From Lachnospiraceae bacterium (GTDB lineage Bacteria > Bacillota > Clostridia > Lachnospirales > Lachnospiraceae): a DNA stretch of 35,674 bases. Numbering within the stretch: the stretch's first letter is position 1; every line of letters begins with the position of its first letter. The stretch covers positions 1 through 35,674 of the forward strand of contig JAEEXY010000031.1 of the NCBI GenBank assembly GCA_016288005.1. The letters are read 5' to 3'. The notes below the pieces were generated by a model. The model did no database searches. It saw only the letters and a program-made list of their open reading frames with translations, and was not told the origin of the DNA. This document shows positions 2,074 to 9,383 of the stretch, piece by piece. The position numbers and the translations under genes were made by a program.

Positions 2074-4089
2074 ATGGAAAACAGATTTATAGTCAATATC
2101 ATTCACCGCCCCGAGATGGTACCCGAGTACGCCGAGAAGGTGACCGGACAGGGCAAGGCCGAGGATATCGGGCGCAAAGCGCTGCTGACCGAGTCGCTCG
2201 ACATTTTCAAGACACAGCAGAGACTCGCGCACGAGAACGGCCTGAAGACCACGATCCAGATGACTTACGCCAGCCTTTTTAACGACGAGGCGGTAGCAAT
2301 TGCGAAGGAGCATCACGAGAAGTACGGCGATGAGATCGCGCTCACGCTGCTCGGACTTCCCTGCAAGGAGTTCCGCGAGAAGTATAAGACCAAGGATTTC
2401 TGTATTTGGATGTTCTCGATGGAGGACAAGATCAGCATTGTCAACGATGTATTTGAGAAGTTCCACGAGCGCTTCGGCTTCTACCCTGAGTCGACGGGGT
2501 CGTACTATATGGACGCAGAGCTTACGAACTACATCAAAGAGACGTATCCTTCGGTAAAATGCGCAGTTGCGACCTGCTGGGAGGAAGGCCCGAAGGCTTA
2601 CCATACCTGCAATAACAGCTGGTACACGCTGATGGACGGCGGTCCGTGGGCACCCTGGATCCCTTCGAAGGTCAATACCCATGCACCCGCGGCCAATGAG
2701 GCCGAGGACAGCGGTATCGTGGCCATTCCTCATCTTTCGCGCGACCTGCTCGCATGCTATGACGGCAACGGCTCGAATTTCGGAACCCATCCGCAGAACG
2801 TTCTGCGCGGCATGAGCTATTACAAAGAGGACGGCGAGTACAAGTACCCTTACTTCTACAATCTTGTCGACCAGTACAGGGTTCTCGGCGATTACAACAA
2901 CGGCATTGCTTACAACATGATGTTCGTCGGACCCGGCTGGATGAACAAGATGGGCCGATGGGAGGCGCCTTACGAGCTGCTCTACCAGAGCTATTCCGAC
3001 GGAATGAAGTATTACGGCGACCTCAAGAAGCAGGGAGAGCTCGAGGATCTCACGATGGCCGAGTGGGCCGATTTCTACCGTGAGCACAAGAATTACACCG
3101 AGCCCGAATGCGCGCTCTGGAAAGACATCCTCTACGGTTCGGACAAGCAGCTTTTCTGGTACAACGATCCGTTCATGCGTGTCTGCGTGAACATGGACCA
3201 GGGCGGCGCGATCGTCGATCTGCGTCCTTACGCGGCGAAGCTTGAGTGGCCGGTGGGCATCGGAACGCCTCATGTTCAGGACTGCTCGTATCCATTCCTG
3301 ATCCAGGAAAAGTACAGGGCCGGATATTTCACTCATTACGCGGGCGAAGGAACAGTGCGCAGCGCGAAGCTGATCCACGGCGGCGAGGAGGTCGACCTCT
3401 GCCTTTGCAGGACCAAGGCGAAGTTCTCAGAAGAAGTGATGAAGGACGAAAAAGGCAGGACCGTCGAGCTCGCTAAATGCGATATGAACGACAAAAAGGG
3501 AAAACTCGTTTCGCCGAAGACAAAGACCTCCGCGGGCAAGATCAGGAAGCTGACTCTCGAACCCGTAGACATAGAGTTTTCGGATCTTAAGGTTAAGCTG
3601 CAGACCGAGATCATTTTCAAGGAAGGCAGCAGCGATATCAAGATAAAGAGAAACATCCTTGAGATGAGCGATCCGAAGGCGGAGCTTAAGATCAACGAAT
3701 ACATGGTGGCTTGCTACGGAACGACCGAATATCCCGAGGACATGACCTGCGTTACCCTTCGTGCGATGGGAGCGCTCGACTCCTACGAAAAGGGCCTCGA
3801 GAGCGGCAGGATCACAGGCATCGACGGAGGCAATATGTCTTCCGCGTCCCGCTCGATCGATTACGCATACAAATGCCGCGAGGAGTATGTTCAGGACGCA
3901 TCCGCGGTCAACGCTTCGATCCGCGCGATAAAGACGCTTGTTACTATGACCGGCGAAGGCGGAAAGAACAATGTCGGCTACATCAGGGAAGGCTATGCGT
4001 TCTCGCCGATGTTCACGCTCGGATACATGGCGGAACTGACACAGGGCGATGTTTATACGACGAGCCTGAGGCTGGAGAGGGAGGATTGA
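2074..4089 (+). CDS. Large cytoplasmic protein of uncertain function, possible carbohydrate-active barrel enzyme
   Basis: The protein is 671 residues from ATG 2074, which has a strong aaggaga ribosome site; the frame extends upstream to 1957 but without a ribosome site. No signal peptide or transmembrane segment is visible. Residues 1-270 alternate strands and helices as in a TIM-like or deacetylase-like barrel, with conserved-looking blocks HRPEMVPEYAEK, FGFYPESTGSYYMD and GGPWAPWIPS. The C-terminal ~250 residues are rich in beta strand and charged residues, as in accessory sandwich domains of glycoside hydrolases. It reminds me of the DUF3863/DUF3864-type proteins, but this is from memory and unverified. 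It is followed 2 bp later by a small zinc-ribbon gene and then by a mannan-type operon, which hints at a role with glycans. I assign no reaction. Confidence 0.8.
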   Translation: MENRFIVNIIHRPEMVPEYAEKVTGQGKAEDIGRKALLTESLDIFKTQQRLAHENGLKTTIQMTYASLFNDEAVAIAKEHHEKYGDEIALTLLGLPCKEFREKYKTKDFCIWMFSMEDKISIVNDVFEKFHERFGFYPESTGSYYMDAELTNYIKETYPSVKCAVATCWEEGPKAYHTCNNSWYTLMDGGPWAPWIPSKVNTHAPAANEAEDSGIVAIPHLSRDLLACYDGNGSNFGTHPQNVLRGMSYYKEDGEYKYPYFYNLVDQYRVLGDYNNGIAYNMMFVGPGWMNKMGRWEAPYELLYQSYSDGMKYYGDLKKQGELEDLTMAEWADFYREHKNYTEPECALWKDILYGSDKQLFWYNDPFMRVCVNMDQGGAIVDLRPYAAKLEWPVGIGTPHVQDCSYPFLIQEKYRAGYFTHYAGEGTVRSAKLIHGGEEVDLCLCRTKAKFSEEVMKDEKGRTVELAKCDMNDKKGKLVSPKTKTSAGKIRKLTLEPVDIEFSDLKVKLQTEIIFKEGSSDIKIKRNILEMSDPKAELKINEYMVACYGTTEYPEDMTCVTLRAMGALDSYEKGLESGRITGIDGGNMSSASRSIDYAYKCREEYVQDASAVNASIRAIKTLVTMTGEGGKNNVGYIREGYAFSPMFTLGYMAELTQGDVYTTSLRLERED

Positions 4090-4594: not shown

Positions 4595-7060
4595 ATGGAC
4601 AGACAGCAGATTTCAAAGGAGTTTTACGATCATCTTACCCGGAAGATCATACCGTTCTGGGCGGAGCTGCGCGACGACAGGTTCGGGGGCTTCTGCGGGT
4701 ATGTGGACTACGACCTGAAAAAGGACCCGGCAGCGGCGAAGGGCTGCATCCTCAACAGCCGCATACTCTGGTTTTTCTCAAATGCGTACATGCTCTTTAA
4801 GGGCAAGGAGGTCAAGGCACTCGCGGATGATGGCGAAAATGCCAAATTCGCCGCGATCTGTCTGGACAACGCAAAGCACGCATATAAATTCATGTCGGAC
4901 TACTGCATAGACAACGCTTACGGCGGAGTGCTCTGGGCGGTGCGCTACGACGGCAGCATCGCCGACGATACAAAGCACACCTACAATCAGGCATTCGCCA
5001 TCTACGCGCTGGCTTCGTATTATGACGCGACGGGCGATCTGTCGGCGTTTTTCAAGGCGATCGAGATCATGGACGTGATCGAGAGCAGGTGCGTGGACAA
5101 TGTCGGGTATCTCGAGGCGTTCAACCGCGATTTCACGCCTGCGGGCAACGATAAGCTCTCCGAGAACGGCGTCGAGGCCGAAAAGACCATGAACACGCTG
5201 CTGCACGTGTTCGAGGCATATACAGAGCTGCTGCGCGTTGCGAGAAAGCACAGCGACAACGGCTGCGGAGGCCTGGCTGCGCGTCTGGCCGGCAGACTGC
5301 GCTTTATGCTGAATATCATCGAAGGCAAGATCTATAATCCTGCGCTCAGGCGTCAGGAGGTATTCTTTGACAAAGACTATAATTCGCTGATCGACCTGCA
5401 TTCCTACGGGCATGACATTGAGACCTCATGGCTCGTCGACCGCGGGCTCGAAGTGCTCGACGACGAGGATTTCACGGCCAGGATCGCGCCGATCACGAAG
5501 GCGCTGGCCGAGCGCATCTATGAGAGGGCGTATGTGAACCATTCGCTCCTGAACGAGTGCGAGAGAGGCACCGACAATACGCACAGGATCTGGTGGGTGC
5601 AGGCCGAGGCGGTGCTCGGTTTCATGAACGCCTCGCAGAAGTTCGAATGCGATCCCGCCAATACCAATCATAAATTCTTCGCGGCCGCGCTCGACATCTG
5701 GAAGTTCATCCGCGAAAAGCTGACGGATCACAGAGAGGGCTCAGAGTGGTTCTGGGAGCTGGATGCAAATCTTGAGCCGATCGCGGGCCGCCCGATAGTC
5801 GAGCCCTGGAAGTGCCCGTATCACAATGGCAGGATGTGCATCGAGATGATCAGGAGACTGGCCGTGACCGATATCGAGATCCCCGAGCTCCATCCCGAGT
5901 ATTACCGCGCGCTGGCGGCATACGATGCGGCGCTCGCAAAGAAAAACAGCATTGATACGGCATTTTATAACGGAATATACGACCGCTGGGTAAATCCGGT
6001 GATCACACGCGACAATATCCCCGTTTTCTGGCGTTACGACCTCAATCCGCAGACGAATCCTTTCTTTGAGGAGCGTCTCGGCATCAATGCGACGATGAAT
6101 TCCGGCGCGATCAAGCTTAACGGCAAATACTGCCTCGTGGTGCGCGTCGAGGGCAATGACCGCAAGAGCTTTTTTGCGGTGGCAGAATCGGACAACGGCG
6201 TGGACGGCTTTAAGTTCCGCGATTATCCCGTTGTTCTGCCCGACACCTGTCCCGAGGAGACCAATGTTTACGACATGCGCCTGACACAGCATGAAGACGG
6301 CTGGATATACGGCGTTTTCTGCTCGGAGTCGCATGACGATTCCTCGAACGATCTGTCCGCGGCGGTGGCTGCGGCGGGCATCGTGCGCACAAAGGATCTC
6401 GATCACTGGGAGAGGCTCGACAACCTCAAAACGCTCAATTCTCCCCAGCAGAGAAATGTCGTGCTCCACCCCGAGTTTGTAAACGGCAAATATGCTTTCT
6501 ATACCAGACCGATGGATGATTTCATCGACACCGGTTCGGGCGGAGGCATCGGCTTCGGACTGTGCGACGATATCGAGCATGCGGTGATAGATGAGGAGAT
6601 CATCACGAGCCGCCGCAAATATCATACGATCACCGAAGTCAAGAACGGTGCGGGTGCCGTGCCGATCAAGACCGACCGCGGCTGGATCCACATCGCGCAC
6701 GGCGTGCGCAATACCGCTGCGGGCCTGCGTTACGTGATCTACGCGTTCGCGACCTCGCTCGACGATCCCGCAAAGGTGATCGCGGAGCCTTCGGGACTTC
6801 TCATCGGACCGCGCGGGGGCGAGAGGGTCGGCGATGTTTCGAACGTTACGTTTACAAACGGCGCGATCGTTGACGATGACGGAAAGGTATTCATTTACTA
6901 CGCATCGAGCGACACGAGGATGCATGTGGCAACTACAACCGTAGAAAGACTTGTCGATTACGTGTTCAATACCCCTGAGGATCCGCTGCGCTCGGCGGAC
7001 TGCGTAAAGCAGCGCTGCGAGCTGATCACGAAGAACCTCGAGTATCTTAAACGGAAATGA
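4595..7060 (+). CDS. Fused cellobiose/mannobiose 2-epimerase and GH130 beta-1,4-mannosylglucose phosphorylase
   Basis: One uninterrupted 821-residue frame joins two enzymes that are normally separate. Residues 1-422 are an AGE-family (alpha/alpha)6 barrel of the cellobiose 2-epimerase type. Arg56 (LNSRILW), His273 and Glu276 (YGHDIETSW), the [10 protein letters not shown] block and His410 (KCPYHNG) match the catalytic and substrate residues of that family. After a ~35-residue linker, residues ~458-821 are a five-bladed GH130 phosphorylase. It has [28 protein letters not shown] with the likely general acid Asp560, and [11 protein letters not shown]; these closely resemble the mannosylglucose phosphorylase of Bacteroides fragilis as I recall it. 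The inferred pathway is mannobiose to mannosylglucose (epimerase), then phosphate cleavage to mannose-1-phosphate and glucose. No signal peptide, so cytoplasmic. It is first in an operon with an esterase and manA. Confidence 0.93.
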
Positions 7061-7080: not shown

Positions 7081-8325
7081 ATGGCTAAAAAATATCTTAC
7101 TTCAAAAATGATCGGGCGTTCGGTTGCGTACGAAGGCAGCCCCGAGGCGCTGGTCACTCTCATGAAACGCGCGAAAAAAGGAGAGAAGCTGACACTGTGC
7201 TTTCTCGGCGGGTCCATCACCCAGGGTTCGCTCTCCTCGACGCCCGAAACATGCTACGCATATCTTGTGTACAGCTGGTTTGTACAGCGTTTCCCGAAGG
7301 CAAAGTTCACATATGTGAACGCGGGCATCGGAGGCACGAGCTCGCAGTTCGGCATCACGAGACTCACCGAGAATGTGACGCCTTATAAGCCCGATTTCTG
7401 CATGGTCGAGTTTTCGGTAAACGACCCTGCCAATCCGCTGTTTGAGGAGAACTACGAGGGCCTTATCAGGCGCCTTCGCAGACTTCCGAGCCACCCGGCT
7501 CTGCTCATCATGAACAACCTGTTCTACGATACCGGTGTAAATACCCAGGCCGAGCACGATGAGATCGGCGAAGCCTACGATATTACCTGCATCAGCGTGA
7601 GGGACGCGGTGCGCCCCGAGATCGAGGCCGGACGCATTAAGCGCGAGGAGCTCTCGCCCGACGGACTGCATCCGAATGATGCGGGACACGCGGTGCTGGC
7701 GGGCCTCGTGACTGATCATCTGGAGCGGATCTGCGCGGAATACGTCGAGGGAAAGGCTAAGCCCGCGGCTCCCGTGGTCACGATCGATCCCGTGACGGTC
7801 AACGCTATGGAAAAGCTCAAGCGGACGCAGTATCGTTCTAAAGCTGTAGAATGCAAGGGTTTCAAACCCGACTATTCAAAGAAAAAGGATCTGCACGACC
7901 TGTTCAAACACGGCTGGAAGGCGTGGAACAAGGGTGATTCGATCACATTTACATTTACAGGCTCGGAGCTGGCGCTCCAGTACAGAAAGACGATCCACCG
8001 CCCCACGCCGATAGCTGAGGCGATAATCGACGGCGATACGGCGCATCCCGTGATCCTCGACGGCAACTTCGATCAGGACTGGGGCGATCATCTCTACATC
8101 GGCACGCTGATGTACCACGGAGAGCGCATCGAGACCGCGCTGGCAGATACCGGGCGGGTGCAGTTTGCCAAGCCCACAAAGGCGGAGGCCGCAGCCGAGG
8201 CTAAGCTCGCCGCGATCGCACAGAAACAGCCCGAAAAGAAAAAACATACGGTAACGATCAGGATAATCGAGACGCATAAGGACGACAAAGTGCCGTTCTA
8301 TCTGGTTTCGTTTATCACGGCGTAA
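7081..8325 (+). CDS. SGNH/GDSL carbohydrate esterase, probable acetyl-manno-oligosaccharide esterase
   Basis: The protein is 414 residues with start ATG 7081, 20 bp after the fusion gene and behind an aaggag site. Residues ~35-215 form an SGNH hydrolase: FLGGSITQG with nucleophile Ser45, NAGIGG (Gly84), FSVND with Asn114, and SPDGLHPND with Asp194/His197. Residues ~255-414 form a beta-rich domain that could be a carbohydrate-binding sandwich. This two-domain layout recalls mannan acetylesterases of gut Lachnospiraceae such as the CE17 type (family knowledge, assignment inferred). It lacks a signal peptide, so it would remove acetyl groups from imported oligosaccharides before the epimerase and phosphorylase act. 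The Ala/Lys-rich stretch at residues ~363-390 looks like a flexible loop. Acetyl-xylan substrates are an alternative. Confidence 0.82.
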   Translation: MAKKYLTSKMIGRSVAYEGSPEALVTLMKRAKKGEKLTLCFLGGSITQGSLSSTPETCYAYLVYSWFVQRFPKAKFTYVNAGIGGTSSQFGITRLTENVTPYKPDFCMVEFSVNDPANPLFEENYEGLIRRLRRLPSHPALLIMNNLFYDTGVNTQAEHDEIGEAYDITCISVRDAVRPEIEAGRIKREELSPDGLHPNDAGHAVLAGLVTDHLERICAEYVEGKAKPAAPVVTIDPVTVNAMEKLKRTQYRSKAVECKGFKPDYSKKKDLHDLFKHGWKAWNKGDSITFTFTGSELALQYRKTIHRPTPIAEAIIDGDTAHPVILDGNFDQDWGDHLYIGTLMYHGERIETALADTGRVQFAKPTKAEAAAEAKLAAIAQKQPEKKKHTVTIRIIETHKDDKVPFYLVSFITA

Positions 8326-8372
8326 AATCATATTATTGCCGGTCTGAGGAAAGGCCGGTGAGGGGATCAGAA

Positions 8373-9383
8373 ATGGATATTATAAGACTTAAGCCTGTAT
8401 TCAAGCAGATGATATGGGGCGGCAGCAGGATGAGAGGCGAGTTCGGGTATGATATCCCGGGCGACGATACGGGTGAGTGCTGGGCGGTCTCGGCGCATAA
8501 AAACGGCGACTGTGAGATCGACGGCGGCGAATTCGGAGGAATGACGCTTTCCAAACTTTGGGAGACCCGTCAGGATGTTTTCGGCAATGCGGGTCAGATC
8601 TTAAAAGACCGGCTCGGCGCGGAAGGCATCGTCACGGACGGCCTGCCCGTTTTCCCGCTGCTCACCAAGATAATCGACGCGCGGCAGGACCTCAGCATCC
8701 AGGTGCATCCGGACGATGCGTACGCGATGGAGCATGAGAACGGGTCGCTCGGCAAGACCGAATGCTGGTACGTACTGGATGCGGAGCCCGGGAGCACGAT
8801 CGTTATCGGGCACAACGCGAAAACACGTGAGGAGCTGGCCGATATGATAGAGAACGGCCGCTGGGGCGAGTTTATCCGCGAGATCCCGGTGCATAAGGGC
8901 GATTTCTTCCAGATTTATCCCGGCACGCTCCATGCGATCAAGGGCGGCACGATGATCCTCGAGACGCAGCAGAACAGCGACATTACCTACCGCGTTTACG
9001 ACTACGGGAGGCTGCAGAACGGCAAACCGAGACAGCTGCACGTGCAGCAGAGCATCGACGTGATAAAGGTGCCTTTTACGGGGAGCGACGCTTCTGACAA
9101 AGGCCGTCCCATGTCGGCGCCGGACGGGTGCGGCAGCAGCTGCACGCCGCTCGTTCACTGCAAATACTACAATGTCCGCAGACTTGACATTGAGGGCAAA
9201 GACTCGTATATTCAAGACGAACCGTTTTTGATCTGTTCGGTGATCGGAGGAGAAGGCCGCATCACGCGCACGGGTGAAACAGACGGTGAGGTTATTCGCA
9301 AAGGCGACCATTTCATACTTCCTGCAGGCTTTGGCGGTTTCACTCTCGAAGGAGGGCTGCGGCTGATCTGTTCATCGATCTGA
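8373..9383 (+). CDS. manA: Class I mannose-6-phosphate isomerase
   Basis: A 336-residue enzyme that interconverts mannose-6-phosphate and fructose-6-phosphate, linking mannose to glycolysis. I chose ATG 8373, which has aggggat 7 bp upstream; a GTG at 8358 would place the start in front of that ribosome site. The cupin zinc site is visible: Gln110 and His112 (IQVHPDD), Glu130 (GKTECWYVL) and His187 (GTLHAIKGG). It is somewhat longer than the shortest Firmicutes ManA proteins and has a normal second cupin half (ILPAGFGG). As third gene of the operon it fits directly: the phosphorylase upstream would make mannose-1-phosphate, which a phosphomannomutase encoded elsewhere would convert to its substrate. 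Confidence 0.93.
   Translation: MDIIRLKPVFKQMIWGGSRMRGEFGYDIPGDDTGECWAVSAHKNGDCEIDGGEFGGMTLSKLWETRQDVFGNAGQILKDRLGAEGIVTDGLPVFPLLTKIIDARQDLSIQVHPDDAYAMEHENGSLGKTECWYVLDAEPGSTIVIGHNAKTREELADMIENGRWGEFIREIPVHKGDFFQIYPGTLHAIKGGTMILETQQNSDITYRVYDYGRLQNGKPRQLHVQQSIDVIKVPFTGSDASDKGRPMSAPDGCGSSCTPLVHCKYYNVRRLDIEGKDSYIQDEPFLICSVIGGEGRITRTGETDGEVIRKGDHFILPAGFGGFTLEGGLRLICSSI

Follow-up and report, generated by a model that had tools for sequence, protein, structure and literature searches.

A mannobiose 2-epimerase-like and a GH130_1 phosphorylase-like enzyme joined in one chain, most likely bifunctional, form a rare but recurrent gene fusion in Lachnospiraceae

The gene at positions 4595-7060 (+ strand) of the window, i.e. 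the whole 35,674-nucleotide stretch of Lachnospiraceae DNA that was analysed, raises the question of whether two enzymes expected to act one after the other in mannan breakdown are here truly joined in one chain and, if so, what such a chain would do and how often it arose. The two steps usually come from separate genes, as the original prediction had stated and as is the case in the portions of PMC6385246, PMC9784577, PMC8262883 and PMC12704710 available to us. A description of such a fusion was not found in open-licence papers, and the domain-architecture listings of protein databases may already show the chain.

The frame opens with ATG and encodes 821 amino acids, in which Pfam recognizes a GlcNAc_2-epim domain (residues 89-395) and a Glyco_hydro_130 domain (residues 501-790). 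The epimerase half (residues 1-422; positions 4595-5860, +) is 44% identical over 422 columns to RaCE of Ruminococcus albus (3vw5), with which residues 9-421 align in a phmmer search against the PDB (E 4.6e-104), and the predicted model matches the fold of that entry with a TM-score, by target, of 0.97. After a linker of about 11 residues (423-433; positions 5861-5893, +), modelled with low confidence, comes the GH130_1 half (residues 434-821; positions 5894-7057, +), which is 71% identical over 385 columns to R. albus RaMP1 (5ay9). Its assignment to GH130_1 follows from the same kind of search: residues 433-818 match 5ay9 with an E-value of 6e-188 and Bacteroides fragilis MGP (3was) with 1.3e-161, against 3.3e-23 for RaMP2 (5ayd). 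Neither NCBIfam equivalog cut-off was reached by the whole protein, be it that of EpiA (NF041848; 253.6 versus 800 bits) or that of mannobiose phosphorylase (93.2 versus 550 bits). The original prediction of one 821-residue frame holding an epimerase and a GH130 phosphorylase is thus borne out by Pfam, by the PDB matches and by the corresponding frames of two congeners (see below).

Are both active sites complete, as had also been claimed? By alignment counting, R56, H273, E276 and H410 correspond to R52, H243, E246 and H374 of RaCE, which we take to be its catalytic residues. In the other half, D560 corresponds to D131, the catalytic acid of B. fragilis MGP (BF0772), Y559 to the tyrosine that precedes the catalytic aspartate, and R523 to Arg94 of the same enzyme, a residue of the +1 subsite (PMC4599007, in the portion available). 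Conservation was assessed in non-redundant sets of 170 epimerase and 163 phosphorylase rows, obtained from 226 and 232 by dropping rows at least 97% identical and containing 13 fused rows each. Gaps aside, the named residues are invariant: H273 and E276 occur in 170 of the 170 rows, H410 in 169 (one gap) and R56 in 168 (two gaps), while D560, Y559 and R523 are each found in 163/163. Several Arg, Lys and His columns are likewise without variation, three basic residues being expected to bind phosphate in GH130_1 enzymes. All 13 fused rows, the window's among them, retain the catalytic positions, except that one incomplete row does not cover the first epimerase positions. Both active sites look complete. 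Both halves are evidently under purifying selection, judging from dN/dS values between the window and its congener G797 of 0.067 for the epimerase half and 0.055 for the phosphorylase half; among own-genus pairs dS is least saturated in this one, and the values for most other pairs are rough because dS exceeds 1.

The structure model, built on an alignment that took in 76 of 103 references, has a mean pLDDT of 89.5, falling to 62 over residues 421-430 and 79 over residues 431-440, and the linker is predicted to be flexible. With a pTM of 0.59, both domains are well defined and their relative placing is uncertain. The B. fragilis MGP hexamer is built by N- and C-terminal helices, and in the monomer model the phosphorylase half carries predicted helices at 434-448 (N-terminal) and 800-820 (C-terminal).

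A gene of this kind could be an artefact of frameshift, assembly or contamination. Such a suspicion is fed by the draft state of the genome, rated 5.98% contaminated, and by the fact that most full-length matches in relatives proved to be read-through of a stop. The GC content of the window is 0.536, compared with 0.492-0.517 for four stretches elsewhere in its genome, and that of the fused loci of G797 and G796 is 0.529 and 0.511. However, these two congeners have the same uninterrupted frame, with 92% (G797) and 85% (G796) identity, and the flanking genes are common to all three, except that the two genes immediately preceding the fusion are missing in G796. Moreover, another genus has fusions in genomes that are near-complete or consist of a single contig (G321, G820). 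Because the intact frame recurs in G797 and G796 and the flanking genes are conserved, a join by frameshift or misassembly, which had been put forward as what might undo the original prediction, is very unlikely, and we regard an artefact of any of the three kinds as scarcely credible.

How widespread, then, is the fusion? In the window's own genus, 13 of 24 genomes gave a match and three (those of the window, G797 and G796) have an uninterrupted fusion. In a further one, G787, the phosphorylase half lies at a contig start. The two genes are separate in G791 (same frame, one TAA between them), in G784 (overlapping) and in G793 (about 3.2 kb apart), and in six genomes of the genus there is an epimerase match without a GH130_1 match. 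In one congener, G788 (L074), the epimerase is 65% identical to that of the window and no GH130 gene was found.

In the family sample, 90 of 397 genomes gave a match and 11 rows span both halves, nine of which contain stops and correspond to two adjacent genes (G126, G366, G358, G162, G173, G111, G236, G209 and G156, all rejected as fusions). The window's frame and that of G321 are uninterrupted and a third, in G266, is fused and cut by the contig end, which gives three fusions among 397 genomes, the window's included. The class sample gave 36 matches in 391 genomes, uninterrupted in the window and G321 only; G688, G593 and G529 have stops inside, their two genes being separate, and were rejected. 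In the phylum sample, where 14 of 398 genomes matched at 1e-100, only the window's frame spans both halves without a stop, the candidate G1038 having one TAA between them. Large open-frame figures in the family sample also drew attention to G264, G333, G187 and G087, in all of which the two genes proved to be separate. A record labelled Acholeplasmataceae (L247) has a GH130_1 match on a long branch of the tree, with no epimerase found at the cut-off used.

In the Lacrimispora-type genus of G321, 10 of 25 genomes match and five are fused without a stop (G321, G798, G799, G807 and G820), the remaining matches being three separate adjacent gene pairs, a broken epimerase frame (G821) and a truncated locus (G808). 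The broken frame of G821 (L174), a single-contig genome, lies beside a partial phosphorylase match and may be a pseudogene or a sequencing error. The genus of G266 (g266) counts four genomes, i.e. two whole fusions, one fusion at a contig end and one fragment only. Among the best 80 of 586 confirmed loci in named records, at least nine have a fused frame, and these nine include Clostridium sp. 12(A), [Clostridium] aerotolerans DSM 5434 and Lacrimispora algidixylanolytica SPL73; the fusion is thus present in cultured Lacrimispora-type strains. It is real, and rare but recurrent in the family.

Such recurrence could reflect one ancient fusion or several. The genes themselves are usual neighbours: of 162 non-redundant loci, 130 have the phosphorylase gene immediately downstream of the epimerase gene, 12 have the two fused and 20 have them apart or at a contig edge, which fits the original suggestion that the pair has been under selection as a unit. 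Six changes of the fused label are required on the tree built from either half, and again six in careful trees of 62 of the 163 phosphorylase and 58 of the 170 epimerase rows, in which the nearest neighbours of fused rows were taken first and long-branch rows were excluded by name. In these careful trees five or six of the changes are forced by well-supported branches, and a single fused clade appears in 0 of 200 bootstrap trees. Fused rows occupy six places: the window's own genus, the Lacrimispora-type genus, g266 and the single metagenomic genomes L193, L215 and L227; with one genome each, the last three could each hold an error. A single origin of all fusions is rejected (one clade, AU p 7e-48), and so is a common origin for the own genus and the Lacrimispora-type genus (p 0.022), while one for the own genus and g266 is compatible with the data (p 0.247). 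We prefer five or six independent origins; the tree counts do not separate gain from loss.

A loss appears to have occurred at least once. In G808 (L175, 1354-2697, minus strand) a 448-amino-acid epimerase frame ends in 42 phosphorylase C-terminal residues, a tail that matches the end of the phosphorylase half in L. algidixylanolytica (73.8%, E 7e-16). This genome is without a GH130_1 match and keeps one GH130 gene of the other, mannooligosaccharide-phosphorylase type next door. The simplest account would be that the tail is the trace of a lost fusion, left by an in-frame deletion within the fused gene. It is the one phosphorylase remnant among 209 frames of separate epimerases, and no epimerase remnant was seen on 210 frames of separate phosphorylases; some loci are represented more than once in these sets.

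In separate-gene relatives, the phosphorylase has its own ATG and ribosome-binding site, often within the end of the epimerase gene. Loss of the stop that separated two such neighbours would have created the window's fusion, and the same would have happened in several further lineages of the family. The linkers differ: a stretch of 15 residues in the window, KRGVEPKLHP in g266 and KRLGIIHP in the Lacrimispora-type fusions. Is the old start of the phosphorylase still in use, so that a long fusion and a free phosphorylase would be made side by side? In the window a possible internal start, AGGAG, seven bases and GTG (Val424), lies at 5852-5866 (+) with a predicted binding energy of -7.4 kcal/mol, and L193, L215 and L227 retain at the old phosphorylase start an in-frame ATG with a strong ribosome-binding site (-9.9, -9.3 and -9.1 kcal/mol) like those of separate phosphorylase genes (median -9.3 kcal/mol, n=139). 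However, G797 does not have the site and G796 has a weak one, no strong site is shared among the Lacrimispora-type fusions or among those of g266, and of 756 control windows taken from within GH130 genes about 10% attain -7.5 kcal/mol. Since the site is not conserved in G797 or G796, we rejected internal initiation as the source of the main product and kept it as a rival only; that two products are made seems to us rather unlikely.

What the fused chain would do can be proposed from separate homologues of both enzymes, for which the two activities described next have been shown in assays (PMC6385246 and PMC12704710, in the portions available). The N-terminal half would convert beta-1,4-mannobiose to mannosyl-1,4-glucose by C2 epimerization at the reducing end, and the C-terminal half would cleave mannosyl-1,4-glucose with phosphate to alpha-mannose-1-phosphate and glucose. 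The net reaction would be that of a mannobiose phosphorylase, i.e. mannobiose and phosphate giving mannose-1-phosphate and glucose. A mutase not located here would then produce mannose-6-phosphate, which the isomerase encoded by the second gene downstream would turn into fructose-6-phosphate. Joining the enzymes would set a 1:1 ratio and place both sites on one chain, and it may or may not let the intermediate be passed on locally, as the original prediction took a fusion to imply. In short, two known enzymes are joined in one chain that is most likely bifunctional, and it is quite probable that the product is a bifunctional enzyme of cytoplasmic beta-mannan catabolism, its activities, substrate, location and benefit being inferred. 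Counting against this reading are the two equivalog cut-offs that the whole protein does not reach, an epimerase sequence that does not tell mannobiose from cellobiose, the possible internal start of a free phosphorylase, and the congeners, of which only 3 of 24 have an uninterrupted fusion, so that most manage otherwise.

Two further readings concern the halves and the substrate. One of the halves might be inactive or merely structural, so that the protein would work as one enzyme carrying a relic; G808, with its 42 phosphorylase residues on an epimerase, illustrates that a half can be lost, and G788 has an epimerase without any GH130. But the retention of the catalytic positions throughout the fused rows, the incomplete one aside, and the low dN/dS of both halves make this highly improbable. 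The main substrate might instead be cellobiose or another glucomannan disaccharide: RiMep of Roseburia intestinalis converts cellobiose to glucosyl-mannose (PMC6385246) and Segatella copri EpiA also acts on cellobiose (PMC12704710), and the epimerase sequence does not separate the two substrates. Yet for GH130_1 enzymes the non-reducing end has to be a mannose, mannosyl-glucose was the only substrate on which RiGH130_1 acted in the available part of PMC6385246, and the genes adjoining the fusion are of mannan type, so that mannobiose remains our preferred substrate and cellobiose an improbable one. A bolder extension of the bifunctional reading would have a GH130_1 hexamer carry six tethered epimerases and keep mannosylglucose from the cell pool, a gain selected five or six times in the family and staged from leaky fusions, with a separate phosphorylase start, to committed ones with none; we consider it doubtful.

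The closest characterized systems have the same parts, differently arranged. R. albus RaCE and RaMP1 share domains, folds, catalytic positions and the two steps with the fusion but are two chains. R. intestinalis RiMep and RiGH130_1 are the same pair, in a Lachnospiraceae mannan locus (MULL) with a CE17 esterase, and unlike the fusion they are encoded by separate co-transcribed genes and were assayed separately (PMC6385246, in part). Segatella copri EpiA and GH130, purified enzymes with which the same two reactions were demonstrated, are also encoded by separate genes, in another phylum (PMC12704710, in part). A precedent for the fusion of same-pathway steps is provided by Roseburia hominis RhGH1-M6P, with GH1 and mannose-6-phosphate isomerase domains; it joins other steps, however, and in the window the isomerase is a separate gene (PMC9784577, in part). 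A frame of 835 amino acids downstream of the epimerase in G134 (L075, 5761-8265) has a mannose-6-phosphate isomerase part and resembles this R. hominis fusion. With the same gene pair adjacent in most relatives and fused in several lineages, the family provides a naturally replicated experiment on the reasons why consecutive enzymes become fused. Comparisons are built in, i.e. linkers of different lengths, separate-gene sisters within the same genera and one apparent loss, so that channelling, stoichiometry and expression can be compared directly across fused and separate versions.

The genes next to the fusion are of mannan type. Directly downstream lies a gene (7081-8325, +) for a CE17-like mannan 2-O-acetylesterase of the SGNH hydrolase type, which matches 6hfz over residues 15-349 (E 1.8e-108), an entry that corresponds to RiCE17 (PMC13276840 and PMC9487903, in the portions available). 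It is followed by a class I mannose-6-phosphate isomerase gene, manA (8358-9383, +; TIGR00218, 182.9 bits against a cut-off of 116.2), and both genes are kept downstream of the fusion in G797 and G796. Elsewhere in the window's genome there are a gene for a GH130_2-like mannooligosaccharide phosphorylase beside an ABC transporter (by eye), a third GH130 and two GH26 genes; with the whole protein as query, a single epimerase and a single GH130_1 were found in this genome. In all five fused Lacrimispora-type genomes and in three of three g266 genomes examined, the gene directly upstream of the fusion, at a distance of up to about 125 bases, is a GH130 of the mannooligosaccharide-phosphorylase type. 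In the window, positions 2074-4089 (+) encode a 671-amino-acid protein with no Pfam or NCBIfam match (searched as a longer frame of 710 amino acids) and no PDB sequence match, which shares 75-79% identity with 19 aligned relatives and occurs in 32 of 250 genomes of the family. Its model, of low confidence (pLDDT 61), gives weak fold matches to mutarotase-like and GH36 domains and to a deacetylase, and the protein may possibly represent an undescribed carbohydrate-active family.
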